Source: an uncultured Clostridium sp.
Lineage (GTDB): Bacteria; Bacillota; Clostridia; Clostridiales; Clostridiaceae
DNA: 44,973 nt
Direction: 5' to 3'
Assembly (NCBI GenBank): GCA_902785295.1
Contig: CACZYK010000013.1
Location: 1-44,973, forward strand
Part shown: piece by piece, positions 19,277-39,861 of the stretch
How positions within the stretch are numbered: position 1 is the stretch's first letter
Layout: each line of letters opens with the position of its first letter
Translations under genes and position numbers: made by a program
Notes under the pieces: generated by a model
Told to the model about the DNA's origin: nothing
The model's database searches: none
The model's input: the letters and a program-made list of their open reading frames with translations, nothing else

Positions 19277-19338
19277 ATACAACATTTTATTATTCAAAGT
19301 AAAAAGCAAATTAAATATAAATAATAGGAGGAAATAAC

Positions 19339-19557
19339 ATGAATAAAAAGCTTATTAAAGATATTATAAAGTTAAAAAAGATGGAATATGAAATTTTTAA
19401 GGAATTAATGCCAGAAAGTATTACAAACAAAATAGAAAAAGTTGAAAAAGAAGTTTTGAGTTTAGGCACAGATATAGTACTAGATTTGATAAAAGATAAC
19501 AAATATGAAGCTAAAGAAAATAAGGAAGTTAAAAAAGTAGGAGTAGATTTTAAGTAG
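19339..19557 (+). CDS. Small protein between two Get3/ArsA-like ATPases
   Basis: 72 residues, Lys/Glu-rich, probably helical: KKLIKDIIKLKKMEYEIFKE then LMPESITNKIEKVEKEVLSL, ending in a disordered basic tail. No membrane segment, so it is not itself a tail-anchored protein. ATG 19339 follows AATAGGAGG, and the stop is 12 bases before the second ATPase gene, which begins behind GAGGTGAAATGGT; clearly the same operon. I do not recognise the family. A helical adaptor or client for the flanking ATPases is a reasonable guess only. Confidence 0.72.
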   Translation: MNKKLIKDIIKLKKMEYEIFKELMPESITNKIEKVEKEVLSLGTDIVLDLIKDNKYEAKENKEVKKVGVDFK

Positions 19558-19569
19558 AGGTGAAATGGT

Positions 19570-20730: not shown

Positions 20731-20738
20731 AAAATATT

Positions 20739-20781
20739 AAAAAAAGAACCTAAAGCAAAGAAAAATTTAGGCTCTTTTTTT
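20739..20781 (+). terminator. Terminator after the ATPase operon
   Basis: AAAAAAAGAACCTAAA and TTTAGGCTCTTTTTTT pair with one mismatch; 11-base loop and long T run. Confidence 0.75.
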
Positions 20782-23703: not shown

Positions 23704-23733
23704 TAACCATCAAGAGGAAATTCTTGGTGGTTA
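23704..23733 (+). other. Orphan hairpin in the 422-base gap before the biosynthetic operon
   Basis: TAACCATCAAGA and TCTTGGTGGTTA pair with one wobble around GGAAAT. A T-rich stretch follows (TTAATTTTAT). No gene ends here, so it is a second insulating terminator or the trace of a lost gene. The rest of 23568-23989 is AT-rich and holds only the direct repeats and promoter listed below. Confidence 0.55.
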
Positions 23734-23989: not shown

Positions 23990-24688
23990 ATGTATATAGA
24001 AGTAAAAGAAATTAAAAAAAGTTATGGAGAAGGAGGAAGCTTTGTACAAGTATTGGATGGAATTTCTACCAATTTAGAAAAAGGGAATATGTGTGTAATT
24101 TTAGGACCATCAGGTTCTGGAAAATCTACTTTTTTAAATGCTATAGGAGGTTTAGATACTGTAGATAGTGGTTCAATTAAAATAGATGGAAAAGAAATTA
24201 CAGGATTAAATTCAGATAGTTTATCAGATTATCGTAGAGATTATTTAGGATTTGTATTTCAATTTTATAATCTAATTCCTAATCTTACAGTTAAAGAAAA
24301 TATAGAAGTGTGCAGTTTTCTTACGAAAAATCCATTAGATATGGATGAACTCTTAAAAACTCTAGGACTTATGGAACATAGAAATAAGTTCCCAGCACAA
24401 CTTTCTGGAGGTCAACAGCAACGTTGTGCTATAGCAAGAGCACTTATAAAAAATCCTAAACTTCTTTTATGTGATGAACCAACAGGAGCTTTAGATTCAA
24501 AAACTTCAAAAGAAATTCTTATATTATTAGAAGAAATTAATAAAAAATATGGTACTACCATGATGATTGTTACTCACAATGATGCAATAAAAGATATGGT
24601 ACATAAAGTTATAAAGATAAAAGATGGAGAAATTTATAAAGAATATGAAAATAAAACAAGAATATTAGCAGCAGATCTAGAATGGTAA
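23990..24688 (+). CDS. ABC transporter ATP-binding protein (MacB/LolD type)
   Basis: 232 residues: Walker A GPSGSGKST (about 39-47), Q loop FQFYNLIPNLTVKENI, signature LSGGQQQRCAIARAL, Walker B LLLCDEPTGALD, H loop VTHN. The FYNLxPxLT segment is typical of ATPases that pair with FtsX/MacB-type permeases, as encoded next. ATG 23990 with GGAGG eight bases ahead is chosen over ATG 23966. First gene of the eight-gene operon; probably exports or gives immunity to the lipopeptide product. Confidence 0.93.
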   Translation: MYIEVKEIKKSYGEGGSFVQVLDGISTNLEKGNMCVILGPSGSGKSTFLNAIGGLDTVDSGSIKIDGKEITGLNSDSLSDYRRDYLGFVFQFYNLIPNLTVKENIEVCSFLTKNPLDMDELLKTLGLMEHRNKFPAQLSGGQQQRCAIARALIKNPKLLLCDEPTGALDSKTSKEILILLEEINKKYGTTMMIVTHNDAIKDMVHKVIKIKDGEIYKEYENKTRILAADLEW

Positions 24689-24714
24689 TTAATAAAACAA
24701 TAAGGGGATAAGCT

Positions 24715-27306
24715 ATGCAGAAATTATTATTAAGACGTACAATAAGAGAATTAAAAGCAAATTTATTTCGTTATTTTGCTTTATTTTTATTAATAGCCTT
24801 ATCTATGTTTATGGTAGTAGGCTTAGTAGGTGCAGCAGAAAGTATTATTTACAATGTTAATAATATAGACTCAAAAAATAATCTAGAGGATGGAGAATTT
24901 GGAGTTTTTGTACCATTAGAGAAAGAAATAGTAAATGAACTTGAAGAAAAAGGGGTAAAACTAGAAGAAGTATTTTCTCAAGATTTTACTATGGAAGATA
25001 AATCAGTACTTCGTCTTATGAAAAATAGAGAAAAAATAAATCTTATAGAATTGTCAGAAGGAAATATTGCAAAAAAAGATGATGAAATAACAATAGAAAG
25101 AATTTATGCTACTGCTCATAAATATAAAGTTGGAGATATTATAGAAATTGGAGGTGAAAAATTTAATATAACTGGTATTGTAACAACACCAGATTATAAT
25201 AATTGTTTGAAAAATAGCAGTGATACATCTTCAGATGGAAAATTTTTTGGAACAGCTTTTGTAACAGAAAATGGATATGAAAAACTTTTTGCTAATGGAG
25301 AATCTGATCAAAGTGAAGAATATATTTATAGTTATATATTGCCTAAAAATATGAATCATAATGAACTAAAGGATTTTTTATTAGAAAAAAAACTTAAAGC
25401 AGAAGATATACAAAATGAATATATAGATGAAATAACTGAAGAGGCGGAAAAAGAAAAGTCAGAAATAACAAATAAGGTACAAAGTCTTGTAAATGGAATA
25501 GATGAATTAAAAAATGGAATGACCACTCTTACTAATGAAAATGAAAATATTCAACAAGCAACAAATTCATTAACAGAAGTTTTATCTAATATACCTAATG
25601 GAAATGAATATTTATATGGTATTACAAAATATTTAAATGGTACAGAAGAAATAAATAAAGGAATTCAAAAATTATCAGATGGTACAAAAGAACTTAAAGA
25701 TAAAACAGATGAAATATTAGAGGAAAATTTTTCAACTGAAATTGAAAATCTTACTAGTTTTGTTAAAGCAGAAGATAATCCAAGAATAAAAGCTTCAAAT
25801 GATGATGTAGAAATCAATATAACATTAGGCTTAGTAGTTGGTGTAATAGTATTAATTTTACTTACTTATGTAATATCAGTTTTTGTGGTTCATACAATTG
25901 AAAAAGAAAGCTCTATAATTGGAGCACTTTATGCATTAGGAGTAAAAAGAAAACAATTAATACTTCATTATACCTTATTGCCAGTAATTGTATGCTTATT
26001 TGGAGGTATTGTAGGAACTTTTATTGGATATTCAAATATGTCATTTTCTATTTATATAAATGATAGTTATAGATATTTTTCTATTCCTGAAATAAGCGCA
26101 ATATATAAAACATATTTACTTATATATGGTATTGTTATACCACCATTAGTTGCTATGATTGTAAATTGTCTTATTATTAGAAGTAAGTTAAATAAAACTG
26201 CCCTTTCTCTTCTTAGAAAAGAAACAAAAAAATTAAAAACAAATTCAATGATAATTAAAGGAAAAGGATTTGTTAGAACATTTCAAATACGTCAATTTTT
26301 AAGAGAAAAAAGAAGTTGCTTTGCAATTTTATTTGGAATGTTTGTTTCTTTATTAATACTTATAATTGGAATGAATACCTATGTAGTTTGTATAAATATG
26401 CAAAAAGAAAATAAAGAAGATGTAAAGTATGAGTATATGTATCAGTATAAATACCCAACTAAAACTCCACCAAATGGAGGCAGTGAAGCTTATGTGGAAG
26501 GGTTAAAAAAAGAAATTTTAGGCTATAATACTGAAGTTAATATTATTGGTTTAACAAAAGATAATTCATTTTTTCCTAAAATAAAAAGTGATAGTAAAAA
26601 TGAAATTAGTATTTCTACAGCAGTTGCTTCTAAGTATGGATTAAAAGTGGGAGATGAACTTTCATTAAATGATGAAATAAACGAAAGAATATATGGCTTT
26701 AAGATAAAAGAGATTGTTCCTTATTCTGTTGGTTTATGTGTTTTTATGAATATTGATAGTATGAGAGAATTATTTGAAAAAGATGAGGATTACTATAATG
26801 TAATTTATTCAGACCATAAGTTAGATATTGATTCAAATAGATTATATAATATACAAACTAAAGATGATGCTAGTAAAAGTGCTGATATTTTTATGGATAT
26901 GATGTGGAGTACTATTATAATGTTAATAGCAATGTCTATTCTAGTCTTTATTATTGTTATGTATCAGATGATAAAAGTAATGATAGAACGTTCCTCTTTC
27001 TCTATTTCTCTTATGAAAATATTTGGATATAGAGAAAAAGAAGTAAGAGCATTATATTTAGATGGAAATTTTATAATTGTATTAATAGGAACAATTATAT
27101 TATTGCCAATTGGAAAGTTATTTATAGATGCTATTTATCCATTTTTTGTAGCAAATATTTCTTGTGGAATTGATATGACATGGAAAATATCATTATATGT
27201 TGTTGTATTTATAGGAGTAATAGTATGTTATTTATTAATAAGTGCTATGTTAATGAAACAATTAAGGAAATTAACACCAGCAGATGTTTTAAAAGATAGA
27301 GAGTAA
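24715..27306 (+). CDS. ABC transporter permease, FtsX family, with large extracellular domain
   Basis: 863 residues. An N-terminal membrane helix (about 18-42) is followed by some 320 residues outside the membrane, including a helical region (about 240-345, SEITNKVQSLVNGIDELKNG and similar) likely to form a coiled coil. Three helices lie at about 365-490 (first FtsX domain), then another helix near 535 and a second soluble domain, and three final helices from about 735 (second FtsX domain, ending TPADVLKDRE). This is the duplicated FtsX permease architecture used for mechanotransmission or export rather than import. 26 bases after the ATPase gene; ribosome site AAGGGGAT. Probable exporter or resistance pump for the encoded metabolite. 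Confidence 0.9.
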   Translation: MQKLLLRRTIRELKANLFRYFALFLLIALSMFMVVGLVGAAESIIYNVNNIDSKNNLEDGEFGVFVPLEKEIVNELEEKGVKLEEVFSQDFTMEDKSVLRLMKNREKINLIELSEGNIAKKDDEITIERIYATAHKYKVGDIIEIGGEKFNITGIVTTPDYNNCLKNSSDTSSDGKFFGTAFVTENGYEKLFANGESDQSEEYIYSYILPKNMNHNELKDFLLEKKLKAEDIQNEYIDEITEEAEKEKSEITNKVQSLVNGIDELKNGMTTLTNENENIQQATNSLTEVLSNIPNGNEYLYGITKYLNGTEEINKGIQKLSDGTKELKDKTDEILEENFSTEIENLTSFVKAEDNPRIKASNDDVEINITLGLVVGVIVLILLTYVISVFVVHTIEKESSIIGALYALGVKRKQLILHYTLLPVIVCLFGGIVGTFIGYSNMSFSIYINDSYRYFSIPEISAIYKTYLLIYGIVIPPLVAMIVNCLIIRSKLNKTALSLLRKETKKLKTNSMIIKGKGFVRTFQIRQFLREKRSCFAILFGMFVSLLILIIGMNTYVVCINMQKENKEDVKYEYMYQYKYPTKTPPNGGSEAYVEGLKKEILGYNTEVNIIGLTKDNSFFPKIKSDSKNEISISTAVASKYGLKVGDELSLNDEINERIYGFKIKEIVPYSVGLCVFMNIDSMRELFEKDEDYYNVIYSDHKLDIDSNRLYNIQTKDDASKSADIFMDMMWSTIIMLIAMSILVFIIVMYQMIKVMIERSSFSISLMKIFGYREKEVRALYLDGNFIIVLIGTIILLPIGKLFIDAIYPFFVANISCGIDMTWKISLYVVVFIGVIVCYLLISAMLMKQLRKLTPADVLKDRE

Positions 27307-27326
27307 ATAAAAAGGAGATTTATATT

Positions 27327-29738
27327 TTGAAAAGTATTGTTGAATTTTTGAAAAAAAATGATACCTTAACAAAAGGTATAACTTTTGTGAATAATGCAAA
27401 TGAAGAATATTTTATGAGTTATCATGAGTTTATAGAAAAGGCAACTAAAGTTCTTGGATTTTTACAATCTAAAGGAATTAAAGAAAATGATGAAATAGTA
27501 TTTCAACTAGAAGATACAAGAAGTTTTCTTCTTTTCTTTTGGGCTTGTGTAATGGGGAAAATAATACCTGTTCCAGTTTTAGTAGGAAATAATGATGAAC
27601 ATAAAAGAAAAATTATAAAGATTTGGGAAAGGTTAAAAAAACCTTATATTGTAGTTGCAGAAAAAAATTTAGAAGTTCTTAGTAAAGAATTTAAAAGATT
27701 AGAACCAGATAGTAAAATTACAAAGGAATTTTCAGAAAGAAATATAATAGCAGAAAAAGCTCTTGAAAGTGAAATAGAAGGTAATATTATAGAAGCAAAT
27801 GAAGATGATTTATGTTTTATTCAATTTTCATCAGGTTCTACAGGAGATCCTAAAGGTGTAATGCTTACTCATAAAAACTTAATTACAAATACAGAAGATA
27901 TTATTAAGTTTTCAGGATTGAGAGAAGATGACACTATACTAAATTGGATGCCTCTTACACATGATATGGGACTTATAGGTTGTCATCTCTCAGTAACAAG
28001 AGTGGGAATGAGTCAAGTTATAATGCCTACAACTCTTTTTGCTAGACATCCACTTCTTTGGTTAAGCATTATAGACAGTAAAAAAATAACTGTATCTTGT
28101 TCGCCTAACTTTGGATATAAGTTAATTTTAAAGTATTGGGAAAGAAAGAAAAAAAGAGAAAAAAATATTAACTATGATTTATCTTCATTAAGACTTTTAT
28201 TTAATGGTGCAGAACCTATTTCTTATGAATTAGAAATGGAGTTTTTAAATGAATTTTCAAAATATAATCTTAATAAAAATTGTATGATGAATGTATATGG
28301 TCTTGCAGAAGCAAGTCTTGCTGTATCTTTTCCAAAGCCAGGGGAAGATATAATTGTTTATAATGTTGAAAGAGAAAGTTTAAAAGTAGGAAAGACTGCT
28401 ATTTTTACAGAAGAAAATATAAATTCAGTTAAGCTTGTAGATTTGGGAAAGGCAATTGGTAATCTAAAACTTAAAATTGTTGATGATGCGGGTAAAGAAT
28501 TGCCAGAAAAAACTACAGGATATGTTTTGATAAAGGGAGATAATGTAACTAAAGGATATTATCAAAATGAAAAAGCAACACAAAATACTATAAGTAAAGA
28601 TGGTTGGTTAAAAACAGGAGATGTAGGCTTTATTATAAATTCAAGATTAGTTATAACAGGAAGAGCTAAGGATATCATATTTGTAAATGGACAAAATTAT
28701 TATCCTCCTGACATTGAGAAAATTTGTGAAAACATAGATAAAATAGAATTAAATACAGTAGCAGCTTCTGGAGTAAGACTAAAGTCTAATGAAAGAGATT
28801 ATATAGCTATATTTATACTTTTTCGTGGTTCAATTGATGAATTTGTAGATATTTATATTAAAGTAAAGAGAACCCTTCAAAGAGTTTTAGGAATAGATGT
28901 AGATTATGTAGTTCCAGTTTTAAAAATTCCTAAAACTACTAGTGGAAAAATTCAAAGATTTACTTTAGCTAAAAAATTGGAAAATGGTGAGTATAATGAA
29001 ATTATAGATGAAATTGAAGAGAAGCTAAAATTAAAGAAACAAATTATGATTGAAAAAGTAAAAGAAAAAAAGTTTAAAAATGCGACGGAAGAAAGAATTT
29101 TTGAACTTTGTGCAGAATATGTTGACATGACAGATGCAAATGTATCAGATAATTTTTCTAATTTAGGTTTTACTTCTATGACATTAGTTAGACTTATGGA
29201 AGATATAAAAAGTGAGTTTGATAAAAAAATTATGATATCAGATCTTTTTGCATATTCAACAATAGAAAAATTAGCAGAATTTATAGAAAATGAAAATCAA
29301 TTAATAATAAGAAAAAATATATTTAAAAAAGAATTTATAAATAATAATGAAACAGAAGAAGTTCCCTTAGAATTTGAGATGGAAATTTCTAAGAATAATG
29401 AAGACATAATAATAAAGAAATTTTTAGACAAAGCATTAGAAAATAATAAGCTAGCTATTATTTATAAAGAAAATAATAACTTTTTAGAATGTTTTCAAGT
29501 TTCAAATGAGGAAAAAATTTTTATTGAAAGATTTTCTTTAGAAAGTCTTAATAGAGCAAAATTTTCTTATTATGAAAATGGATTTAGTGTATTAATTGTA
29601 GAGGGCTATAAAACAAGTGGAATGGAAGATTATTTTGATATTATTATTGAAATAATAGAAGCTAGATATGGAAAGATAATTGTATTTTCATTTTATAATG
29701 AAAAATTAAAAGCTTATTCATTATGTAAAAAGTTATAA
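27327..29738 (+). CDS. Fatty acyl-AMP ligase fused to an acyl carrier protein, with C-terminal extension
   Basis: 803 residues. Residues about 1-565 are an adenylating enzyme: ATP loop FIQFSSGSTGDPKGVMLTHK (about 164-183), then WMPLTHDMGLIG, CSPNFGYKL and YGLAEASLAVSFP, a pattern typical of FAALs that feed fatty acids to PKS/NRPS lines; KTTSGKIQR ends the domain. An ACP follows with its phosphopantetheine Ser617 in GFTSMTLVRLM. From about residue 655 a 145-residue tail has no family I recognise. Start is TTG 27327, set by AAAGGAG at 27311-27317 with 9-base spacing. It should activate a free fatty acid as acyl-AMP and load the ACP, starting the assembly line. Acyl-CoA synthetase activity is a less likely alternative. 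Confidence 0.88.
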   Translation: MKSIVEFLKKNDTLTKGITFVNNANEEYFMSYHEFIEKATKVLGFLQSKGIKENDEIVFQLEDTRSFLLFFWACVMGKIIPVPVLVGNNDEHKRKIIKIWERLKKPYIVVAEKNLEVLSKEFKRLEPDSKITKEFSERNIIAEKALESEIEGNIIEANEDDLCFIQFSSGSTGDPKGVMLTHKNLITNTEDIIKFSGLREDDTILNWMPLTHDMGLIGCHLSVTRVGMSQVIMPTTLFARHPLLWLSIIDSKKITVSCSPNFGYKLILKYWERKKKREKNINYDLSSLRLLFNGAEPISYELEMEFLNEFSKYNLNKNCMMNVYGLAEASLAVSFPKPGEDIIVYNVERESLKVGKTAIFTEENINSVKLVDLGKAIGNLKLKIVDDAGKELPEKTTGYVLIKGDNVTKGYYQNEKATQNTISKDGWLKTGDVGFIINSRLVITGRAKDIIFVNGQNYYPPDIEKICENIDKIELNTVAASGVRLKSNERDYIAIFILFRGSIDEFVDIYIKVKRTLQRVLGIDVDYVVPVLKIPKTTSGKIQRFTLAKKLENGEYNEIIDEIEEKLKLKKQIMIEKVKEKKFKNATEERIFELCAEYVDMTDANVSDNFSNLGFTSMTLVRLMEDIKSEFDKKIMISDLFAYSTIEKLAEFIENENQLIIRKNIFKKEFINNNETEEVPLEFEMEISKNNEDIIIKKFLDKALENNKLAIIYKENNNFLECFQVSNEEKIFIERFSLESLNRAKFSYYENGFSVLIVEGYKTSGMEDYFDIIIEIIEARYGKIIVFSFYNEKLKAYSLCKKL

Positions 29739-29751
29739 AGAGGAGAAGTTT

Positions 29752-30888
29752 ATGAGTTATGGTATTTTATTTACAGGGCAAGGGTCACAATTTTCTGAGA
29801 TGGCAAGAGAACTAATAGAAAAATATCCATTAGCAGCTGATATATTTAAAATAGCAGATAGTATTTTAGGATATTCCATTACTGATATATGCACAAAAGA
29901 AGAACTTTTCAAAGAAATGGAAAAAACAAATATAGCACAACCAGCTATATTTGTTTTAGAGTATGCTTTATATTCAGTTATGATGGAATTTTTAAAAGAT
30001 AAAGACTATATGCCATCTTTTATTGCAGGACATAGTCTTGGAGAATATACAGCTTTAGCTGCAGGAGGTGTTATGAGTTTTAAAGATACTCTTAAGCTAG
30101 TTAGTAAGCGTGGAACTTTTATGAGTGAATCGGCAGAAAAAAATAAAAGTACTATGATAGCTGTTACAAGCATTTCAAAGGAAATTTTCTTTTATATTGA
30201 AGAATATATTAAAAAAAATAATAATATTTTTTTAGCTTGTGAAAATAGTGAAAGACAAAAAGTTTATTCTTTAAAGGAAGACACGAAAGAAGATTTTATA
30301 AATTTTGTAGAAGAGCATAAAGGAAAAGCAAAGGTTCTTTCAGTAGAAGGAGGCTTTCATAGTCCTTATATGAAAAGTGCAGCAGAAAAATTAAATAGTG
30401 AGCTTAGAAAATGTTCTTTTTTAGAACCAAAGTGTAATATATATTCAAATACTTTAGGACGCATTTATAAATCTTCTGAAGAAATTAAAGAAGTATTACC
30501 AAAACATATTATAGAATGTGTTAAATGGGAAACTATAATGAAAAAAATAGAAAAATCTTCAACAAACTTAATTATAGAAATAGGACCTAGACCAATTTTA
30601 TTAAAGGAAATAAAAAAAGATATTTCTAATATAGAAATTTTACATTTAGGAGCAAATACTAATATTGTTCATGTTACTAAAAAAGTTAAGGATGAAATTC
30701 AAAATGATTATAAGGACAATATCAAAAAAATGTTGAGAAATATTGTATGTAGTAAAAGTGATGGAAAAGTAGAAACTTTAAAAAAACGTGAAGAGGCTTA
30801 TGAGTTATTTATGAATATGATATATAAAGATAATATTACTGCTGATAAGTTAGCTATTGCTAACAATATATATAATGAACTTTTTTAA
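29752..30888 (+). CDS. Stand-alone malonyl-type acyltransferase (FabD-like, trans-acting)
   Basis: 378 residues. Starts FTGQGSQFSEMA; nucleophile Ser95 in GHSLGEY, carboxylate-binding Arg120 in SKRGTFM, catalytic His203 in GGFHSPYM. The conserved Arg indicates a dicarboxylic acyl-CoA such as malonyl-CoA. About 75 residues beyond the FabD core (after IGPRPILLKEIK) form a Lys-rich tail of unknown role. The KS protein next door has no acyltransferase domain, so this enzyme must load its ACP in trans. 13 bases after the preceding gene, ribosome site GAGGAGAAG. Confidence 0.92.
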   Translation: MSYGILFTGQGSQFSEMARELIEKYPLAADIFKIADSILGYSITDICTKEELFKEMEKTNIAQPAIFVLEYALYSVMMEFLKDKDYMPSFIAGHSLGEYTALAAGGVMSFKDTLKLVSKRGTFMSESAEKNKSTMIAVTSISKEIFFYIEEYIKKNNNIFLACENSERQKVYSLKEDTKEDFINFVEEHKGKAKVLSVEGGFHSPYMKSAAEKLNSELRKCSFLEPKCNIYSNTLGRIYKSSEEIKEVLPKHIIECVKWETIMKKIEKSSTNLIIEIGPRPILLKEIKKDISNIEILHLGANTNIVHVTKKVKDEIQNDYKDNIKKMLRNIVCSKSDGKVETLKKREEAYELFMNMIYKDNITADKLAIANNIYNELF

Positions 30889-30924
30889 AAGAATAAGAAA
30901 CTTTTACATTTAGGAGATGAAGTG

Positions 30925-33900
30925 ATGAAATCTATTAATAATAAAGACATTGCCATAATAGGAATGGCTACTAATTTTCCAAGGTCTAAAAATCTAAAGG
31001 AATATTGGAATGTACTTAAAAATGGAGTAGATTGTATAAGGGAATTCCCTAAAAATAGAAAAAAAGATATAGAAGATTATATAAATTTTTTAGGGAAAGA
31101 AGATGAAGGATTTATTAAAGCAGGATTTTTAGAAAATATAGATATGTTTGATAATAAATTTTTTAACCTTACACCAAAAGAAGCTGTACTTATGTCTCCA
31201 GTACAAAGAATGTTTCTTGAAATAGCATATAAAGGCTTTTATGATGCTGGATATAATAAAGAAAAACTAAATGGAAGTAAAACCGGAGTCTATGTAGGTT
31301 ATATAGGTGATTATGAAGGATATATTTATAGAAATATGCTTCAAAATCTTACAGACGATTTTTCATCTATTGCTATGAGTGGAAATTTATCTTCTATTAT
31401 TTCTGGAAGAGTAAGTTATAGCTTTAATCTTAAGGGACCAAGCATTCTTATTGACACTGCATGTTCATCGTCCCTTGTTGCACTTCATAATGGATGTAGA
31501 GATATACATGATGGAATTTGTGATATGGCTTTAGTAGGAGGAATAAAAATTTGTATGCTTCCAACTAATTCATCAGAAAAGATAGGAATAGAAGCTATGG
31601 ATGGAAAAACAAAAGCTTTTGATGAAAAGGCAGATGGAACAGGAATAGGAGAAGGAGCTGGTGCTATAGTTATAAAATCACTTTCAAAGGCTGAAAGAGA
31701 CGGAGATTATATATATGCAGTAATAAAAGGAAGTGCCATAAATCAAGATGGAGCTTCAGTTGGTATGACAGCTCCAAATCCATCTGCTCAAAGGGATGTG
31801 TATTTACAGGCTTGGAAAAATGCTAGAATTAATCCAGAAGATATTTCTTATATAGAAGCTCATGGAACAGGAACAAAACTTGGAGATCCAATAGAAATAG
31901 ATGGACTTACACAAGCCTTTAGAAAATATACAGATAAAACTCAATTCTGTGCAATAGGTTCTGTTAAAACTAATATAGGTCACCTTTATGAAGCTTCAGG
32001 TATTGCTTCTATAATAAAAACAGTATTGGCACTTAATTTTGGAAAAATACCACCTAGTTTACATTTTGATATGCCAAATCATAAAATAGATTTTATTCAT
32101 TCTCCTTTTTATGTTGCTGGAGAGATAAGGGATTGGCAAAATAATGGGAAAACAAAACTAGCTGGAGTATCCGCATTTGGTTTTAGTGGAACAAATTGTC
32201 ATGTTGTCCTTGAAGAATATAATGGGAAAGCTAAACCTTATATGGAAAGTATAGAAGAAAGACTTGAGAAAAGCACTGAAGAAATATTTGATAATAAGAG
32301 ATATTGGTTTAAAACTAAATATATTTTATCTGGTAGTGAAAGAAAAAATGTTGTTACAAATAAAAAAGAAGATTTTAAGCTCATAGGAAAAGAAATATTT
32401 TCAGAATATGAAGAAAAAATAGGAAAACTATGGAGTAAGCATATGGGATATACAGAAATTAATATCTCTGACAATTTTTTTGAGCTTGGGGGAGATTCTA
32501 TAATAGCTACTAAAATAGTTTGTGATATACAAAAAGAAATATCTAGTGGAATTAAAAATTCAGATATATTTTCTTTTCCTACAATAGAATCATTATCTAA
32601 ACATTTAGAAAGCTTTCAAGGAAATAATAAGACAGAAATAGAAATCCTTCCTAAGAAGTCTTATTACAAGGCTTCTGCTGAACAACAAAGACTTTATATT
32701 GTTTATCAAATTGAAAATAAAGATGGAACATATAATATGCCATTTGTAGCAGAATTCAATAAAAAAATAGATAAAGATAAAGTTGAAAAATCAGTAAATG
32801 CAATAATTCAAAGACATGAAACTCTTAGAACAGGATTTTTTGAAAAAAATGGAGTTATATATCAAGAAATTAAAGAATTCCCTAATTGGAAGCTAGATTA
32901 TGAAAGTATAAGAGAAAATGATTTACAAAAGAAAATAAAAGAATGCCAAAAAAGTTTTGATTTAGGTGTTCCTCCTCTTATTAGGGTTAAACTTTTTGAT
33001 ACTGAGAAAAGAAGTGTAATTTTTGTAGATATGCATCACATAATTTCTGATGGTACATCAATGGGAATATTTATAAAAGAGCTTATGGTTTATTTTAATG
33101 GAGGAAATATGGAACCATTAACTGTTCAGTATAAAGACTTTTCAGTATGGCAAGAGAAATATTTAAAAAGTGAGACAGTAAAAAAACAAGAAACTTTTTG
33201 GAAATCTATATTTAAAGATGGAATACCTGTATTGTATTTACCAGAGGATTTTAAGAGACCTTCGATAAGAACAACAAAAGGAGGTTCATATTCCTTTAAA
33301 GAGTCAGAAAGAGTTAGAAATTTAGTTGAAGCTTTAGCAAAAAAGAAGGAATGTACACCATTTATTATACTTTTATCAGCTTATTATATAATGCTTCATA
33401 AACTTAGTAAACAAAGTAGTATAGTAGTGGGTTCACCTGTTTCAGGAAGAATACACTATCAATCTATACCTATGATAGGAATGTTTGTAAATATGATACC
33501 TTTTAAAGTAGATATTGATAAAGAGGACACAATGCTTCAATTTATAGAAAAAATGAAAGGTGTAGTTTATAAAGCTTATGAAAATCAAGAATGTCAATTT
33601 GAAACAATAGCTTCTCTTAATGTGAAAAATAGACCAGAAGGACGTAATCCTGTTATGGATGTACTTTTTGCTTATCAAAATATGGAGCTTCCAGAACTTG
33701 TATTAGATAACGATAAAGCTAAGACATATAATATAAATTCTGATTCAAAGTATGATTTGATGCTTGAAATTTATAATGAAGATAAAGGCTACAATCTTAG
33801 ATTTGAATATTATAGCGAAATTTTTAAGGAAGATACTATAAAAGAGTTTGCAAAGTTGTATAGTGATATACTTAATAAATTTATTGAAAATGAAAATACA

Positions 33901-33972
33901 ACTATTAAAGAAATTTGTATTGATAAAGAAAATAATAAAATAAATGATATTTCTATTGATTTTAATTTTTAA
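30925..33972 (+). CDS. Hybrid PKS-NRPS protein: ketosynthase - carrier - condensation domain
   Basis: 1015 residues from ATG 30925, eight bases after AGGAG (a GTG just before it is rejected). Ketosynthase about 8-430: Cys180 in DTACSSSL, His313 in EAHGTGT, His353 in KTNIGH; triad intact, so it condenses. No AT, KR, DH or ER domain. Carrier about 490-560 with Ser525 in LGGDSI. Condensation domain from about 575 with HHxxxDG seen as MHHIISDG (His705, Asp709), plus EQQRLYIVYQ, RHETLRTGFF, GSPVSGR and GMFVNMIPF, an LCL-like set. Expected role: extend the FAAL-loaded fatty acyl chain by one malonyl unit, keep the beta-keto group, and pass the chain to the amino acid on the next protein. Confidence 0.93.
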   Translation: MKSINNKDIAIIGMATNFPRSKNLKEYWNVLKNGVDCIREFPKNRKKDIEDYINFLGKEDEGFIKAGFLENIDMFDNKFFNLTPKEAVLMSPVQRMFLEIAYKGFYDAGYNKEKLNGSKTGVYVGYIGDYEGYIYRNMLQNLTDDFSSIAMSGNLSSIISGRVSYSFNLKGPSILIDTACSSSLVALHNGCRDIHDGICDMALVGGIKICMLPTNSSEKIGIEAMDGKTKAFDEKADGTGIGEGAGAIVIKSLSKAERDGDYIYAVIKGSAINQDGASVGMTAPNPSAQRDVYLQAWKNARINPEDISYIEAHGTGTKLGDPIEIDGLTQAFRKYTDKTQFCAIGSVKTNIGHLYEASGIASIIKTVLALNFGKIPPSLHFDMPNHKIDFIHSPFYVAGEIRDWQNNGKTKLAGVSAFGFSGTNCHVVLEEYNGKAKPYMESIEERLEKSTEEIFDNKRYWFKTKYILSGSERKNVVTNKKEDFKLIGKEIFSEYEEKIGKLWSKHMGYTEINISDNFFELGGDSIIATKIVCDIQKEISSGIKNSDIFSFPTIESLSKHLESFQGNNKTEIEILPKKSYYKASAEQQRLYIVYQIENKDGTYNMPFVAEFNKKIDKDKVEKSVNAIIQRHETLRTGFFEKNGVIYQEIKEFPNWKLDYESIRENDLQKKIKECQKSFDLGVPPLIRVKLFDTEKRSVIFVDMHHIISDGTSMGIFIKELMVYFNGGNMEPLTVQYKDFSVWQEKYLKSETVKKQETFWKSIFKDGIPVLYLPEDFKRPSIRTTKGGSYSFKESERVRNLVEALAKKKECTPFIILLSAYYIMLHKLSKQSSIVVGSPVSGRIHYQSIPMIGMFVNMIPFKVDIDKEDTMLQFIEKMKGVVYKAYENQECQFETIASLNVKNRPEGRNPVMDVLFAYQNMELPELVLDNDKAKTYNINSDSKYDLMLEIYNEDKGYNLRFEYYSEIFKEDTIKEFAKLYSDILNKFIENENTTIKEICIDKENNKINDISIDFNF

Positions 33973-33990
33973 AAGGAGTTTAGAAGAGTA

Positions 33991-36900
33991 ATGGCAGAAA
34001 ATTTAAAGAGTTTTGAAGAATATTGGAGTACTATTTTTCAAGAGGATAGTAACATAAATAGAGAAGGATTTTTTATAACAGAACCTAATGAAAATTATAT
34101 AAAAAAGACTTATGAAATAGAAAAAAAATATTATGAAACACTTTCAAAAATATCAAATTCAAATAATGTAGCTTTATATATAGTTTTAACTTCTGGTATA
34201 TCTTATCTTTTAGGAAGGTATACAAATTCTTCAAAAATTGTTCTTGGAATAGCTAATTTTTCAAATAAAGATGTTACAGAATCTAATAAAATAATACCAA
34301 TAGTTTTTAATATTTATGAAAATTATTCATTAAAAGAATGGATAAATTATACGAAATCTACGATATTAGAAGGACAAAAACATACAGAAGAAAATATTAA
34401 AGCCTTCATGGAAAAAAATGGACTGTGTTATGAGCAATTTATAAAAACAGTAATTTCTCTAAATGAAGAAGGTAGTTTTAATACAAAAGCAATAGGAGAA
34501 AAGGGTAGTGATAGTTTTACATTCTACATTGAAAATGGAGTCTTTAAATTAGAGATTTCTTGTGCTGAAAGTATTAAAAATGAAATGGACTATCTTATAA
34601 AGAATATATTTTTATATTTTGAAGCACTTAAAAATGACTTAGATAAAAGCTTAGAAGATATAAATATTATAAATAATGAAGAAATTTTAAAATTAGAAGA
34701 CTTTAATAAAACAGATTGTAATTATGATTTCTCTAAAGGTTATTGTGAATTATTTAAACTTCAATGTGAAAAGACACCTAAAAATATAGCTATAGTAGAA
34801 AATGAAAAAAGTATAACTTATGAAGAACTTGATATGAAGTCTAGTCAAATTGCAAGTTATCTTAAAAAAAGAGCTAATGTAAAAGCTAATGATTTTGTAG
34901 CAGTATTGTATCCAAATTCAATACAGCAAGTTGTTATAAGTTTGGCTATTGCAAAGAGTGGTGGAGGAATTATTCCCTTAGATATAGATTTACCTAAAGA
35001 GAGAATTAAATTTATTTTAAAAGATGCTAATGCAAAAATTCTTGTTTTTCCTTCAAATAAAATAAAGCTAGCTCAAGAGATTTTATGGGAATGTGATTGT
35101 ATAGAGAGAATATTTTGTGCAGATAGCTTTAATGTAGAAAATGAAAAAGAAGAAGAAAATAATATGTATATGGATAAAAGCCTTTGGGAGTATGTAGGGG
35201 ATAACTCTAAAGATGACATAACTCTTGGAGGATGGTCAAGTAGCTATACAGGAGAATATTTTTCAACAGAAGAAATGCAAGAATATAGTGAAAATGTATT
35301 TAAAAAATTAAGACCTCTTCTTACAGGCAATGAAAAAGTATTAGAAGTAGGCTGTGGTTCAGGACTTACAATGTTTCCATTATCAGTTTATGCAAAGGAA
35401 TATCATGCTATTGATTTATCAGAAAGTACAATTAAAAAAAATAAAGAAAAAGCAAAAAAACAAGGTCTTAATAATATAACATTAAGTAATTATGCAGCTC
35501 ATGATGTAAAAAAAATAAATGAAGATAACTTTGATTTAATTATAATGAATAGTGTTGTTCAATGCTTTAATGGACACAACTATTTAAAAAATGTATTAAG
35601 AACTGTTGTTGGAATGATGAAAGATATAGGATATATATTTATTGGCGATATTATGGATTTAGATAAGAAAAAAGAATTTGAAATATCTCTTAAAGAATAT
35701 AAAAAGAAAAATCCTAAAGCAAATACCAAAACAGATTTAAGTGAAGAACTTTTCTTAAGCAAGGAATTTTTTGATAATATTCCATTTATTATAGAAGGTG
35801 CTACAGAAGTTAAAATAACTCCTAAAATATATACAATAGAAAATGAACTTACATTATATAGATATGATGTTTTAATTAAGATTGATAAAATAAGTAAAGA
35901 AAAGATAGGAAAACAAACAAAGTTTTTAGAGAGCTTAAAAGAAGTAGAAACATATGGAAATTCTTATTTAGAAACTTTTGATGATGGTTCACTAGATGAT
36001 TCAGCAATAGGTATTTATACATCAGGAACTACTGGAAATCCTAAAGGGGTTGTGTTATCTAAAAAATCTATTTTAAACCTTTGTTTTTATTCTGAAGAAG
36101 TTTTTAAAATTACTGAAAATGATAGAAGAGCTAAAAATGCAACTTTTTCATTTGATGCAGCCATATGGGAAGTATATCCTTTCCTTTTAAAAGGTGCTTC
36201 TATATATATAATAGATAAATCTATAAAATTAGATTTAGTTGCAATTAATGAATTTTTTGAAAAGAATAAAATAACAATAGCATTTTTTACAACCCAGGTT
36301 GCAGAACAATTTATGAAACTTAAAAATACATCTTTAAGATATCTTATAGCAGGCGGAGAAAAATTAAGAAGATTTTATAAAAATGGTAATTATAAAATGA
36401 TGAATGTTTATGGACCAACAGAGACAACAGTGGTAGCAACTAATTATATAGTGACAGAAGATATTGATAACATTCCAATAGGAAAACCCTTTCCTAATGT
36501 AAAATGTTATATTGTAGATTCTAAGGAAAGAATACAACCTTTAGGAGGTAGAGGAGAAATTTATATAGGAGGTTTAGGGGTTGGAAAGAAATATATTAAC
36601 CTTAATGAACTTACTAAAGAAAGATTTGTAACCTTTAAAGGAAATAGAATTTATAAAAGTGGTGATTATGGATATTATAAATGTGACGGAAATATAATGT
36701 TTTTTGGAAGACGTGATGGTCAAGTAAAAATTAATGGATTTAGAATAGAAGTTAGTGAAATAGAAAAACATATATTAAGCCTTGATATTATAAAAGAAGC
36801 TGTTGTTTTAGATTTTAGTGATGACGAGGGAAATAAATATTTATGTTGTTATTATGTAGCAAAAAAAGAATTTTCAAAAGATGAACTTTCAGAGTATCTT

Positions 36901-38544
36901 TCAGAGGTTCTTCCTAATTATATGATTCCAGCATATTTTGTAAGACTTGAAAAAATACCTTACACAATAAATGGAAAACTTATAAGAAAAAATCTTCCAA
37001 ATCCTAAAGTAGGATTATCAGGAGGAAATAAAGTAAAACCTACAAATCATAAAGAAGAAAAAATACTTGATATTTGGAAGAAAGTTTTGGGAATTAAAGA
37101 TATTGGCATTGAAGATGATTTCTTTGAACTTGGTGGAAATTCTATAAAAGCAATAAAAGTAGTATCTGCTATGTCAGAAGATTTTCGTGTGGATATAAAT
37201 AAAATATTTAATTATACAACTATAAAATCTTTAGCTGAAAATGTAGAATATGTTCAAGGATATTTTCAAAAACTTAAAGAAGCAGTTATAGAGGATCAAA
37301 CGAAAGGAATAAATGAATATGATAAGAAAAAAATTGATGAAAAGTATAAAAGATATCTAAATGCAATACCAGAATATTTAAATAAAGATGTTAAATATAA
37401 TGTTGAAAAGTATAAAAATATACTTCTTCTTGGAGGAACTGGATTTTTAGGAAGTCATATATTATATTATTTAATAAAAAATACACCTGTTAATATAACA
37501 ATTATTTCAAGGGGGAAGGACAATAAAGAAGCTTTAAACCATGTATTAGAGATCTTAAATTATTATTTTGAGGATATAACCAAGGAAGATTTATCAAAGC
37601 TAACCATACTAAAAGGGGAAATATCAAAGGAAAAATTTAATATTTCAAAGGAAAGATATAAAGAACTTTGTGAGAACATAGATGGAATTATAAATGCAGC
37701 AGCTAATGTTCATCATTATGGAGATTATAATGAATTTTATGGAATAAATACAGAAGTATTAGAGATACTTACTGATTTTGCACAAACAGGAAAAAGAAAA
37801 GATATACATCACATATCAACAGTAGGAATAGCAACAGGAGCAGTTGAAGGACGCAAAGATTTAATTTTTACAGAAGAGGATTTTGATGTAAATCAGAATA
37901 TTGATAATTATTATGCTAAGACAAAGTTCTTAGGGGAAAAAGTTCTTTATGAGGCAAGAAAAAAAGGTATAAATGCGAATATATATCGTATGGGAAACCT
38001 TGTTGGAAGAGCTGCAGATGGGTTTTTTCAAAAAAATATGAAAGAAAATGGTTTTTATAAAATTATTAAAGCTATGATATCGATCGGAATTGTTCCTAAA
38101 ATAACTAAAAAAAATACTGATTTAACATTTATAGATAATGCTGCTGAAGCTGTAGTACGTCTTGCATTTGCTGATAACATTACAAATGATACTTTCCATA
38201 TACAAAATACAAATTTAGTAAGTATAAATCAGCTAGGAGAATATTTAAAAGAAATAGGATTAAATATTAATTTAATGGAATATAAAGAATATCTTAATTT
38301 CCTTTTTGATAATCATAATGAGAAAGCCTATTCTGAAGATATACAAACAATACTTTTACATACTCATCTTGAAGAAAATATAAAGCTTTCAAGATTTAAA
38401 GTAATATGTGATAAAACAGAAAAAATGCTTGAAAAATGTGGATTTAAATGGACAATACCAGATATAGATAAATTTTCAATGCTTATTAAGTGTGGTATAG
38501 AAAGAGGCTTTTTAAATAAGGGGGATCTAAGAGATGGTTTTTAA
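33991..38544 (+). CDS. NRPS: half condensation domain - adenylation domain split by a methyltransferase - PCP - thioester reductase
   Basis: 1517 residues. About 1-230 resembles only the C-terminal half of a condensation domain, without HHxxxDG. The adenylation domain starts near 245 (ITYEELDMKSSQIASYL, GGGIIPLDIDLPKERI), is interrupted at about 395-640 by a SAM methyltransferase (VLEVGCGSGLT at 449) and resumes with A3 TSGTTGNPKGV at about 673, then FDAAIWE, YGPTETT, SGDYGYY, GRRDGQVKINGFRIE, and A10 Lys in INGK at about 990. By-eye specificity code DAWFIGVVVK, close to a known leucine code. PCP Ser1051 in LGGNSI. Reductase from 1145: GGTGFLGSH, and YxxxK at Tyr1308/Lys1312, so the product leaves as aldehyde or alcohol. 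18 bases after the PKS gene. Confidence 0.92.
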   Translation: MAENLKSFEEYWSTIFQEDSNINREGFFITEPNENYIKKTYEIEKKYYETLSKISNSNNVALYIVLTSGISYLLGRYTNSSKIVLGIANFSNKDVTESNKIIPIVFNIYENYSLKEWINYTKSTILEGQKHTEENIKAFMEKNGLCYEQFIKTVISLNEEGSFNTKAIGEKGSDSFTFYIENGVFKLEISCAESIKNEMDYLIKNIFLYFEALKNDLDKSLEDINIINNEEILKLEDFNKTDCNYDFSKGYCELFKLQCEKTPKNIAIVENEKSITYEELDMKSSQIASYLKKRANVKANDFVAVLYPNSIQQVVISLAIAKSGGGIIPLDIDLPKERIKFILKDANAKILVFPSNKIKLAQEILWECDCIERIFCADSFNVENEKEEENNMYMDKSLWEYVGDNSKDDITLGGWSSSYTGEYFSTEEMQEYSENVFKKLRPLLTGNEKVLEVGCGSGLTMFPLSVYAKEYHAIDLSESTIKKNKEKAKKQGLNNITLSNYAAHDVKKINEDNFDLIIMNSVVQCFNGHNYLKNVLRTVVGMMKDIGYIFIGDIMDLDKKKEFEISLKEYKKKNPKANTKTDLSEELFLSKEFFDNIPFIIEGATEVKITPKIYTIENELTLYRYDVLIKIDKISKEKIGKQTKFLESLKEVETYGNSYLETFDDGSLDDSAIGIYTSGTTGNPKGVVLSKKSILNLCFYSEEVFKITENDRRAKNATFSFDAAIWEVYPFLLKGASIYIIDKSIKLDLVAINEFFEKNKITIAFFTTQVAEQFMKLKNTSLRYLIAGGEKLRRFYKNGNYKMMNVYGPTETTVVATNYIVTEDIDNIPIGKPFPNVKCYIVDSKERIQPLGGRGEIYIGGLGVGKKYINLNELTKERFVTFKGNRIYKSGDYGYYKCDGNIMFFGRRDGQVKINGFRIEVSEIEKHILSLDIIKEAVVLDFSDDEGNKYLCCYYVAKKEFSKDELSEYLSEVLPNYMIPAYFVRLEKIPYTINGKLIRKNLPNPKVGLSGGNKVKPTNHKEEKILDIWKKVLGIKDIGIEDDFFELGGNSIKAIKVVSAMSEDFRVDINKIFNYTTIKSLAENVEYVQGYFQKLKEAVIEDQTKGINEYDKKKIDEKYKRYLNAIPEYLNKDVKYNVEKYKNILLLGGTGFLGSHILYYLIKNTPVNITIISRGKDNKEALNHVLEILNYYFEDITKEDLSKLTILKGEISKEKFNISKERYKELCENIDGIINAAANVHHYGDYNEFYGINTEVLEILTDFAQTGKRKDIHHISTVGIATGAVEGRKDLIFTEEDFDVNQNIDNYYAKTKFLGEKVLYEARKKGINANIYRMGNLVGRAADGFFQKNMKENGFYKIIKAMISIGIVPKITKKNTDLTFIDNAAEAVVRLAFADNITNDTFHIQNTNLVSINQLGEYLKEIGLNINLMEYKEYLNFLFDNHNEKAYSEDIQTILLHTHLEENIKLSRFKVICDKTEKMLEKCGFKWTIPDIDKFSMLIKCGIERGFLNKGDLRDGF

Positions 38545-39076
38545 AGGATTAGAATTAACAGATCATGTTATAAAAGAAAAATATGTTTTTGAAGAAACAA
38601 GTAATGATAATGGAGGAAAAAGACTTGTATATAAATGCTATATGGAGCCTACAGAAAAAGCAATTTCTCCAGTACATGTTCATACCATTTCTGATGAAAA
38701 GTTTGAAATTTTAGAAGGAGAGATAACCATAAAAATAAATGGCAAAGAAAAGATATTTAAAAAAGGTGATAAAATAAATATAACAAGAGGAACAGCACAT
38801 ACAGGATATAATAGTGGAAATAAAGAAGCTATTGTAAGATGTATAGTTGAACCTGCCTATTCTATGGAGGATTATATATACACAACTGTAAGACTTTCAA
38901 ATATGGGAAAAACAAATAAGAAAGACCTTCCTAATCCATTTATGATTGCAGCTATGGGATATAAATATAAAGAGCAAGCTTATATGCCATATTTTATTCC
39001 TTTACAGAAACTATATTTCTCCACTATAGGATTTGTAGTGGCAAATATATATAAGCTATTAAAAATAGAGTTTTAA
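38534..39076 (+). CDS. Cupin-domain protein of the biosynthetic operon
   Basis: 180 residues: a single cupin barrel with metal-binding pattern HVH (His48, His50), Glu55 and His89, and Gly-rich turns (LEGEITIKINGKEKIFKKGD). Residues after about 110 form a separate aromatic tail with a hydrophobic end (YFSTIGFVVANIYKLL). It overlaps the NRPS gene by 11 bases, so translation is coupled. Cupins of this size act as small-molecule enzymes (isomerases, cyclases, oxygenases) or sensors. In an anaerobe an oxygenase is unlikely; a role in tailoring or cyclising the released aldehyde is possible but unproven. Confidence 0.85.
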   Translation: MVFKGLELTDHVIKEKYVFEETSNDNGGKRLVYKCYMEPTEKAISPVHVHTISDEKFEILEGEITIKINGKEKIFKKGDKINITRGTAHTGYNSGNKEAIVRCIVEPAYSMEDYIYTTVRLSNMGKTNKKDLPNPFMIAAMGYKYKEQAYMPYFIPLQKLYFSTIGFVVANIYKLLKIEF

Positions 39077-39124
39077 TTGTATTTTTTAATAAAAAACATA
39101 TTCAAAGTATAAGGTAGAATAAAA

Positions 39125-39793
39125 ATGAATGTTGCTATTTTAAAAATATTAGATTTTTATCAAGTAGATATAGATAAAATGATAAAATATATATCAGAAG
39201 AAAAAAAGAAAAAAATTAATGGTTTTTACAAAATAGAAGACAAAGTAAGAGGAATATATAGTGAATTATTAATAAGAAAGATGATTATGGAAGAGTTAAA
39301 TATTGAGAATAAGGAAATATTTTTTAAAACTAATAAATATGGAAAGCCATATTTAAAAGGATTTAAAGATATATTTTTTAATATATCTCATTCAGGTCAA
39401 TATGTTGTATGTTGTTTAGATAGTAATCCAGTTGGAATAGATATAGAAAAAATTAGTACAATAGATTTTGAAGGTATAGCAAAGGAATTCTTTACTTTTA
39501 AAGAGCAAGAGTATATTTTAAAAGAGAATAAGTTGGAAGAAAGAATTAATAGGTTTTATGAAATTTGGACTTTTAAAGAAAGTTTTATAAAATGTATAGG
39601 AACTGGTCTTTATATGCCATTAAATAGTTTTTCTATTTGTTTTGATGAAGAAAATAAACCAGTTGTTGATATTAATAAATATTCATTAAAAAGAATAGAA
39701 GTGGATAAAAACTATAAAATGAGTATATGCTCCCAAAATAATAATCTATCTTATAATATAGAATATATTTCATCAAAAGAATTAAAAATATGA
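39125..39793 (+). CDS. 4'-phosphopantetheinyl transferase, Sfp type
   Basis: 222 residues that activate carrier proteins with the CoA-derived phosphopantetheine arm. Motifs: FNISHSGQYVVC (about 89-100), GIDIE with Mg-binding Asp106 and Glu108, and WTFKESFIK with Trp148, Lys151 and Glu152. Sfp-like length, so broad carrier specificity. Last gene of the operon, 48 bases after the cupin, followed by a terminator. It should serve the three carriers encoded upstream. Ribosome site is weak (AAGGTAG). Confidence 0.95.
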   Translation: MNVAILKILDFYQVDIDKMIKYISEEKKKKINGFYKIEDKVRGIYSELLIRKMIMEELNIENKEIFFKTNKYGKPYLKGFKDIFFNISHSGQYVVCCLDSNPVGIDIEKISTIDFEGIAKEFFTFKEQEYILKENKLEERINRFYEIWTFKESFIKCIGTGLYMPLNSFSICFDEENKPVVDINKYSLKRIEVDKNYKMSICSQNNNLSYNIEYISSKELKI

Positions 39794-39801
39794 ATAAATA
39801 A

Positions 39802-39842
39802 AAAGTATCTCTATGAAATTTTTTATAGAGATATTTTTTTTT
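39802..39842 (+). terminator. Terminator of the biosynthetic operon
   Basis: TATCTCTAT and ATAGAGATA around a loop of about 10 bases, followed by nine T. Nine bases after the transferase stop; no other terminator was seen inside the operon. Confidence 0.88.
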
Positions 39843-39861
39843 AGTAAAGTCAAGAAAAATT

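Follow-up and report, generated by a model that had tools for sequence, protein, structure and literature searches.

The locus at 23990-39793 of the window (the whole 44,973-nucleotide stretch that was analysed, from an uncultured Clostridium sp.) consists of eight open reading frames on the + strand. In order, these encode an ABC ATPase, an FtsX permease, a FAAL-ACP protein, a discrete acyltransferase (AT), a KS-ACP-C protein, an NRPS (half-C/A(MT)A/PCP/R), a cupin and an Sfp-type phosphopantetheinyl transferase (PPTase), exactly as the initial annotation had listed them (Table 1). Successive stop-to-start gaps are 26, 20, 13, 33 and 18 bases, followed by an overlap of 11 bases and a gap of 48. 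The terminator downstream of the PPTase gene folds at -18 kcal/mol (z -5.45), and none of 200 shuffles is equally good. Reading frames and terminator fold together bear out the compact operon that had been described, with gaps of 13-48 bases or overlaps and a terminator at its end; Pfam domains do the same for its own PPTase and exporter. This terminator is absent from the list of a simple scan requiring three G-C pairs. The same scan lists a terminator-like hairpin at 23704-23733, between an upstream amylase gene and the operon. The longest ATPase frame begins at 23966, but the sequence AAGGAGG lies just upstream of the ATG at 23990, which is therefore the preferred start. A promoter scan gave fewer hits (99) than shuffled sequence does on average (118), and for this reason no promoter is claimed.

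Table 1. Genes, domains and signals of the operon
Feature	Position	Strand	Basis
ABC exporter ATPase (LolD/MacB-like)	23990..24688	+	PF00005; ribosome-binding site before ATG
FtsX-type permease, 863 aa	24715..27306	+	PF02687
FAAL-like starter ligase, ACP and C-terminal extension	27327..29738	+	PF00501, PF00550
Discrete acyltransferase, FabD-like	29752..30888	+	PF00698; GHSLGEY and GGFHS
Ketosynthase domain of 30922-33972 gene	30943..32238	+	PF00109/PF02801; DTACSSS, EAHGTGT, NIGH
ACP of 30922-33972 gene	32419..32607	+	PF00550; GGDS
Complete condensation domain of 30922-33972 gene	32662..33921	+	PF00668; HHIISDG
Half-C, start of 33991-38544 NRPS gene	33991..34674	+	model and fold matches
Adenylation domain, first part (a1-a2)	34696..35142	+	Pfam, alignment
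Methyltransferase inserted between a2 and a3	35143..35886	+	Pfam, profile match
Adenylation domain, rest (a3-a10), code DAWFIGVVVK	35995..37005	+	code from alignment
PCP	37057..37239	+	PF00550; GGNS
Terminal thioester reductase domain	37417..38451	+	PF07993; T1277/Y1308/K1312 kept
Cupin	38534..39076	+	PF07883
Sfp-type phosphopantetheinyl transferase	39125..39793	+	PF01648, PF22624
Intrinsic terminator	about 39800..39843	+	folding energy vs shuffles

Seven further copies of the operon were compared, four clostridial and three from Paenibacillus, and their accessory genes vary. The gene set is more than a chance association: the four synthase proteins are found as a group in six other loci, with identities of 25-66%. 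The operon is a family spread over clostridia and Paenibacillus and is not private to the window genome. Among 206 Clostridiaceae genomes, three, counting that of the window, have full-length matches to the NRPS (one more is cut by a contig end), in line with the rarity in clostridia stated by the initial annotation. When the NRPS alignment was run against the class, 7 of 391 genomes exceeded the threshold; the whole length is covered only in the window, and the other genomes match either from half-C to PCP or from A to R. In a plasmid collection the NRPS query matched 75 records, none with a single place covering 80% of the query.

The FAAL-ACP protein carries its ACP at residues ~590-653, and its C-terminal extension of ~150 aa has no Pfam match. 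An insertion after the NVYGLAEA motif is a mark of FAALs, and the starter ligase has one: residues ~338-375 are aligned throughout in the FAAL structures 3pbk and 3kxw and fall in gaps in McyG (4r0m). The best NCBIfam match of the ligase, NF006624, scores 363.8 bits, under the 600-bit cut-off, and the enzyme is consequently filed as FAAL-like only. McyG is the best solved-structure match by score, and on that account the starter may be of aryl type. The KS module has no AT of its own and a discrete AT lies in the cluster, the arrangement of a trans-AT PKS. A stretch of ~150 aa between KS and ACP, docking-like by eye in copy L033, is missing in the window. The KS proteins of the window and L041 are 1016 and 1023 aa long, as against 1171-1206 aa in five others.

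The KS protein ends in a complete condensation domain, and the half-C of the initial annotation is indeed present where the NRPS begins. Motif, model and fold matches redefine this half-C as a condensation-domain C-terminal lobe on its own, lacking the active motif. Its Pfam match is weak (18.5 bits against a cut-off of 30.6) and is confirmed by fold. Judged by these features it is non-catalytic and probably a scaffold. The same half-C is common to all seven complete operon copies, and this argues against local decay. The missing catalytic lobe and the sporadic distribution could also be read as signs of an operon decayed or silent in the window strain; this seems very improbable, given the shared half-C and the eight whole frames. 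Loss of key catalytic residues, named in the initial annotation as evidence against its reading, was looked for, and all checked motifs are intact. Pfam domains and motifs likewise support the claim that parts for an acyl starter, a C2 extension, one amino acid, methylation and reductive release are all in place.

In the NRPS protein, PF00501 is found in two pieces around methyltransferase models, followed by PF00550 and PF07993; the A domain is interrupted in the a2-a3 manner. Codes were read from the alignment: that of the window (Table 1) differs at two positions from DAWFLGNVVK, which we take to be a Leu code and which six copies carry, and the remaining copy, MAG L041, has DAWLIGAVVK. Of 61 methyltransferase domains found, 53 distinct ones remain after leaving out four with too little sequence behind the methyltransferase, the second domain of L075 (code unreadable) and L049, L070 and L077, which duplicate the contigs L035, L037 and L038. 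The exact Leu code occurs in 18 of these 53 A domains; by their specificity codes, 35 presumably specify residues without a side-chain nucleophile and nine residues with one, nine being unassignable. The best solved match of the methyltransferase profile is 5wmm, presumably the TioS M domain (E 9.5e-28, aligned over positions 28-248 of 250). According to the available text of PMC11355689, TioS M domains are N-methylases, and TioN and MarQ, which like the window protein have their methyltransferase between a2 and a3, are both S-methylases of the side chain. The nearness of 5wmm is thus weak evidence for N-methylation, as the named a2-a3 methylases are S-type and the comparison contained no S-methylase sequence.

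The position of the insertion between a2 and a3 together with the leucine-like codes makes N-methylation of the amino acid likely. TioN acts on Cys (PMC11355689, available text), in contrast to the leucine-like codes here. A TioN-type S-methylating subtype was considered and rejected, since it requires a Cys-type code. It is rather improbable that the methyltransferase acts on the inter-carbonyl carbon, an oxygen or the side chain and leaves the amide nitrogen free. The S-methylating a2-a3 insertions of PMC11355689 and the nine relatives with nucleophile-type codes would fit such a site, but all eight operon copies have Leu or near-Leu codes and the profile alignment to the 5wmm M domain runs over the span given above. 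A quick tree was built from 54 rows of the MT-A part; in it, the rows of the eight operon copies require three label changes, at least two of them forced by well-supported branches, and none of 500 shuffles is as low as three. The operon copies do not form a single clade in this tree. The half-C-A(MT) protein of L052 falls among them; its locus has no FAAL, AT or KS matches, and it was rejected as an operon copy.

The terminal R domain scores 144.6 bits against PF07993 (cut-off 20.1) and 175.9 bits against TIGR01746 (E 1.3e-51), the latter below the 213.35-bit cut-off. T1277, Y1308, K1312 and the nucleotide-binding GxxGxxG are kept in all eight copies. As the reductase triad is intact, the domain is predicted to release the product reductively. 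In fungal PKS-NRPS tetramate pathways the terminal domain is of the Dieckmann type (PMC7421883, available text); with the triad and the nucleotide-binding motif kept, Dieckmann closure to a tetramic acid is scarcely to be expected here. The argument from the triad is not decisive, because the available part of that source reports that no residue marking Dieckmann domains was found.

Among known systems, the aureusimine synthetase AusA resembles the NRPS in being a Firmicute NRPS with an R domain, and its model NF047350 is the best NCBIfam match (558.8 bits, far below the 2500-bit cut-off). AusA serves a dipeptide pyrazinone pathway that is not known to involve a FAAL or a KS. We know of no FAAL-ACP, discrete AT or cupin in fungal PKS-NRPS pyrrolinone pathways, which differ further in using fungal hybrid megasynthases. 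They share the conversion of a beta-keto amide aldehyde to a pyrrolinone, and the fungal clusters keep an alpha/beta-hydrolase gene (PMC7421883, available text), as do four of the eight copies here. The reductive release of the initial annotation stands, and two close bacterial precedents can be added. In the mutanoclumpin (mcg) cluster of Streptococcus mutans, a predicted FAAL start, ketide (malonyl) extension, a terminal amino acid and an R domain lead through an aldehyde and aldol condensation to a five-membered lactam, with PPTase and transporters in the cluster; mcg-homologous clusters in Clostridium are also reported (PMC12403116, available text). Mcg differs in having several modules, with Phe and Glu and with Ser specified by the last one, and a methyltransferase that likely acts on a carboxylate (PMC12403116, available text); the words cupin and hydrolase are absent from its main text. 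Identity with mcg was rejected, as the window has just a single amino-acid module, the code of which is leucine-like, and no Ser-specific terminal A domain. Malleicyprol BurF likewise uses a fatty acid and malonyl, has a C domain that accepts a beta-ketoacyl chain, and shows reductive release and Knoevenagel-type closure, but it links an alpha-hydroxy acid through an ester bond to give a butenolide; its last module (C, NEX domain, T, Red) has no A domain and is loaded by BurJ/BurH (PMC12304814, available text). Streptococcus clusters in the available part of PMC6694145 are of pyrazinone and tetramic acid types, unlike the window operon. The initial annotation knew of no pathway described with precisely this set; the literature searched, which covers few subscription papers, does not contradict it and yielded no described product of the operon. 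The relatives in other clostridia and Paenibacillus show that the pathway is real and shared.

From these parts we infer the following route. The FAAL-like domain is predicted to adenylate a fatty (or related) acid and to load it on the first ACP. The discrete AT would charge the second ACP with malonyl, after which the KS would make a beta-ketoacyl chain, the keto group of which would stay because KR and DH are absent from the operon. The A domain would select a leucine-type aliphatic amino acid and load the PCP, on which the inserted methyltransferase would N-methylate it. The complete C domain would join chain and amino acid, the C-lobe of the NRPS only holding the A domain or aiding docking of the two proteins, and the R domain would release an aldehyde using NAD(P)H. 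Attack on this aldehyde by the acidic carbon that the two carbonyls flank (aldol/Knoevenagel) would then give a 3-acyl-1-methyl-5-alkyl-3-pyrrolin-2-one, for which the ABC pair is the predicted exporter. A beta-ketoacyl N-methyl-leucine-type aldehyde closing to a 3-acyl-N-methyl-pyrrolinone is the best explanation of the operon, and our confidence in it is moderate.

The same line might end in an open product, either an N-(beta-ketoacyl)-N-methyl amino aldehyde, such as a protease-inhibitor-like lipo-aldehyde, or, if a further reduction follows, as is conceivable here, the alcohol. The thioester reductase type of the R domain (PF07993, with TIGR01746 below cut-off), the lack of a hydrolase in the window operon and the PanE-like reductases adjoining two other copies would suit this outcome, which we consider unlikely but worth keeping in view: on chemical grounds an aldehyde next to a beta-keto amide would be expected to cyclize readily, and mutanoclumpin ring compounds persisted after every accessory gene disruption (PMC12403116, available text).

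The pathway is compact and complete in itself, belongs to an anaerobe, has a predictable product mass and can also be studied in the relatives Paenibacillus typhae CGMCC 1.11012 and Paenibacillus sp. S150. For a ring product with N-Me-Leu the calculated [M+H]+ is 280.2271 with a C8 starter, 308.2584 with C10, 336.2897 with C12 and 364.3210 with C14; the open aldehyde would lie 18.0106 higher, the alcohol 20.0262 higher and a product lacking the methyl 14.0157 lower. More tentatively, the operon could represent an unnamed Firmicute pathway that yields N-methyl 3-acyl-pyrrolinone lipids from a minimal set of parts. In it, an a2-a3 methyltransferase would act on the backbone nitrogen, docking and support of the A domain would fall to a C-lobe alone, and a cupin working without O2 would bring about the ring closure for which some relatives employ an alpha/beta-hydrolase. 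If so, backbone-N action would set it apart from the a2-a3 methylases TioN and MarQ (PMC11355689, available text). The operon offers a clean test of whether such methyltransferases can act on backbone nitrogen, and of whether cupin or hydrolase genes beside bacterial reductive PKS-NRPS lines drive ring closure.

The cupin may steer ring closure or a later tautomer, probably without O2, as the host is an anaerobe. The case for such a role is weakened by mutanoclumpin, whose ring formed with no need of an accessory enzyme (PMC12403116, available text). The HxH, E and H residues of the cupin are kept in six copies. A fold search matched generic cupins only (quercetinases, putative sugar-phosphate isomerases, polyketide cupins) and gave no usable function. 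In the genome sets searched, high-scoring cupins are confined to operon carriers: 2 of 204 Clostridiaceae and, in the genus of P. typhae, 2 of 100 genomes, the latter set also giving four weaker matches (E about 1e-21). An alpha/beta-hydrolase directly follows the NRPS or cupin in L033, L034, L062 and L079 (assigned with Pfam in L033 and L079). By reading frames and Pfam there is none among the eight genes of the window operon, and L033 and L034 have no cupin; hence neither is strictly needed in the family. The PanE-like reductases lie near the operon in L041 and L035 and may carry out further reduction there.

The initial annotation proposed eight genes in a particular order, and both the genes and their order were borne out by ORF calling and domain searches. 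The gaps, in operon order, are 26, 20, 13, 33 and 18 bases, followed by an 11-base overlap and a gap of 48 bases. The ATPase gene most likely starts at 23990, with a putative ribosome-binding site directly before that ATG, and a terminator is found downstream of the PPTase gene by computed folding (z -5.45). The G+C content of the operon region (24-29% in 2-kb windows) is similar to that of the remaining window, which is one entire contig of a 3.2 Mb assembly in 151 contigs. In this host genome the NRPS has no second match of its kind at E 1e-80, and PF01648 matches, besides the Sfp-type PPTase, only a 141-aa frame that is AcpS-like in size.

The comparison covered seven further operon copies (tabulated; L numbers denote loci and G numbers genomes, and L049 is on the same contig as L035). 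The four synthase proteins of L041 share 45-66% identity with those of the window. In L069 and L079 FtsX is upstream of FAAL-ACP, and both loci start within FtsX. A hydrolase gene follows the cupin gene in L062 and L079, and the PPTase of L069 is on the opposite strand. No cupin match was found in L033 and L034 within the stretch of locus examined. PanE/ApbA-like reductase genes are found close to the exporter genes in L041 and L035, and are absent from the window operon.

Gene order in the operon copies, and other features of the window and related loci
Locus	Source	Coordinates	Genes or feature
L041	Clostridiales MAG C.6_2		HlyD-like, FAAL-ACP, AT, KS-ACP-C, NRPS, cupin, ATPase, FtsX, PanE-like, Sfp
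L033, L034	G125, G126		HlyD-like (by eye), ATPase, FtsX, FAAL-ACP, AT, KS-ACP-C, NRPS, alpha/beta-hydrolase
L035/L049	Clostridium sp. C8-1-8		NRPS (broken off by contig end), cupin, ATPase, FtsX, PanE-like (by eye)
L062, L069, L079	Paenibacillus sp. 2.1, P. typhae, Paenibacillus sp. S150		FAAL-ACP, AT, KS-ACP-C, NRPS, cupin
L041		16976-17899	PanE/ApbA-like reductase (Pfam)
L035		8553-9500	PanE/ApbA-like reductase (by eye)
L052	Paenibacillaceae strain CAVE-418	8723-11977	1084-aa half-C-A(MT)A protein, leucine-type code
L043	Acetivibrio mesophilus	8801-20744	large NRPS-PKS line
L083	Ruminiclostridium papyrosolvens	6242-18200	large NRPS-PKS line
Window		10043-10459 / 10440-10898	LysR-type regulator in overlapping ORFs (HTH part, substrate-binding part)
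Window		18110-20730	tandem ArsA-type ATPase genes, HSP20-like domain in each
Window		20844-21458 + 21701-22003	rubredoxin plus glutamate-synthase-like gene

The functions assigned to all parts of the operon are predictions from sequence and predicted folds. The FAAL-like domain of the starter protein has the insertion present in 3pbk and 3kxw and absent from McyG. The ACP retains its serine. At the C-terminus, the starter proteins of the window and L041 both extend for ~150 aa that no Pfam model matches. The window AT carries GHSLGEY and GGFHS, and by motif rules we take it to be of malonyl type; the second motif differs among the copies, being VPSHS in L033 and L034, GAFHS in L062 and APFHC in L069 and L079. 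The KS protein contains the KS motifs DTACSSS, EAHGTGT and NIGH, an ACP with GGDS and a full C domain with HHIISDG. Its counterparts in L033, L034, L062, L069 and L079 are 155-190 aa longer; in that of L033 the surplus falls between KS and ACP and appears AT-docking-like on visual reading. The NRPS consists of a half-C (model built from 5 sequences), an MT-split A domain, a PCP with GGNS and an R domain with GGTGFLG and T1277/Y1308/K1312. The cupin HxH, E and H residues are kept in all six aligned copies; the cupin model was built from 6 sequences.

The methyltransferase (METHYLTRANSFERASE) sits between motifs a2 and a3 of the A domain (a3 is YTSGTTGNPKG, residues 676-686), and its best match among solved structures is 5wmm (E 9.5e-28), a TioS M domain. 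To read the codes, the ten positions of the Stachelhaus scheme, in which codes carry assigned meanings, were located by alignment with FDxxxW, GG and NxYGPTE as anchors, rather than with a trained predictor. The window has DAWFIGVVVK and L041 has DAWLIGAVVK; the remaining six copies share DAWFLGNVVK, which we take to be a leucine code. Since a leucine-type side chain offers nothing to methylate, the nitrogen is the likely target. DAWFLGNVVK occurs exactly in 18 of 53 distinct A domains of the same MT family, a sample that is biased because part of the loci were gathered with two peptide patterns (taxa: Clostridia, Paenibacillaceae, Aminicenantes, Acidobacteriota, Fulvivirga and one myxococcal MAG). 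By the usual code meanings, with near-matches like the window's counted, the side chain lacks a nucleophile in 35 of the 53 and carries one in 9 (Thr, Cys, Tyr and Asp types), which leaves 9 unassigned. In a quick MT-A tree the operon copies were not all gathered in one clade. L043 and L083 have their NRPS-PKS line in common, with two a2-a3 methyltransferase modules apiece, whose codes we take to be Phe-like and Cys-like. The match to the L052 protein stops before the R domain; this protein is encoded close to a PPTase and an ABC ATPase, and FAAL, AT and KS matches are absent from the locus. The a2-a3 methylases named in the accessible part of PMC11355689 are S-methylating cases only.

The operon contains no beta-keto reduction, and therefore the C domain should couple a beta-ketoacyl chain to the N-methyl amino acid. 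The R domain would then release an N-(beta-ketoacyl)-N-methyl-aminoaldehyde, whose acidic CH2 could attack the aldehyde to give a five-membered ring. The mutanoclumpin and malleicyprol lines are two described bacterial examples in which rings are closed from intermediates like that proposed here. For mutanoclumpin, labelling supported an aldol condensation to the five-membered lactam, and products were still made by accessory-gene mutants (PMC12403116). For malleicyprol, substrate mimics gave trapped aldehydes and synthesis showed Knoevenagel-type closure to be feasible (PMC12304814). An alpha/beta-hydrolase is found in 4 of the 8 present copies (PF12146 in both tested) and a cupin in 6, the two together in two. 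Every copy has one or both, L035 and L049 excepted as partly seen, and it is chiefly this pattern that suggests that the cupin and hydrolase may act on the released aldehyde or the ring. In fungal pyrrolinone clusters, too, an alpha/beta-hydrolase is retained, and it is the presumed Knoevenagel enzyme (PMC7421883).

Some NRPS match at E 1e-80 occurs in 30 of 206 Clostridiaceae genomes. Among these 206 the match is full-length in the window, G125 and G126, and in G106 it extends as far as the contig end; in a class-wide sample of 391 genomes it is full-length in the window alone. Strong cupin matches were found in 2 of 204 Clostridiaceae and, among 100 genomes from the genus of P. typhae, in 2 (with four weaker matches besides); all four genomes with a strong match carry the operon. 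Within the sets searched, a strong cupin match goes with the operon. Clusters like mcg, the mutanoclumpin cluster of Streptococcus mutans, are reported in Clostridium genomes (PMC12403116) and may include the present operon. Full-text searches of the open literature gave no recognisable description of the operon or its product. Every part of the operon belongs to a known kind; what is unusual is their combination, together with the start with a C-lobe, the pairing of an a2-a3 methylase with a leucine-type code, and the presence of a cupin.

Elsewhere in the window, the apparent split of the LysR-type regulator into two ORFs represents a frameshift or an assembly error. The rubredoxin plus glutamate-synthase-like gene is seemingly broken, with a stop at 21458 and the C-terminal part in another ORF.
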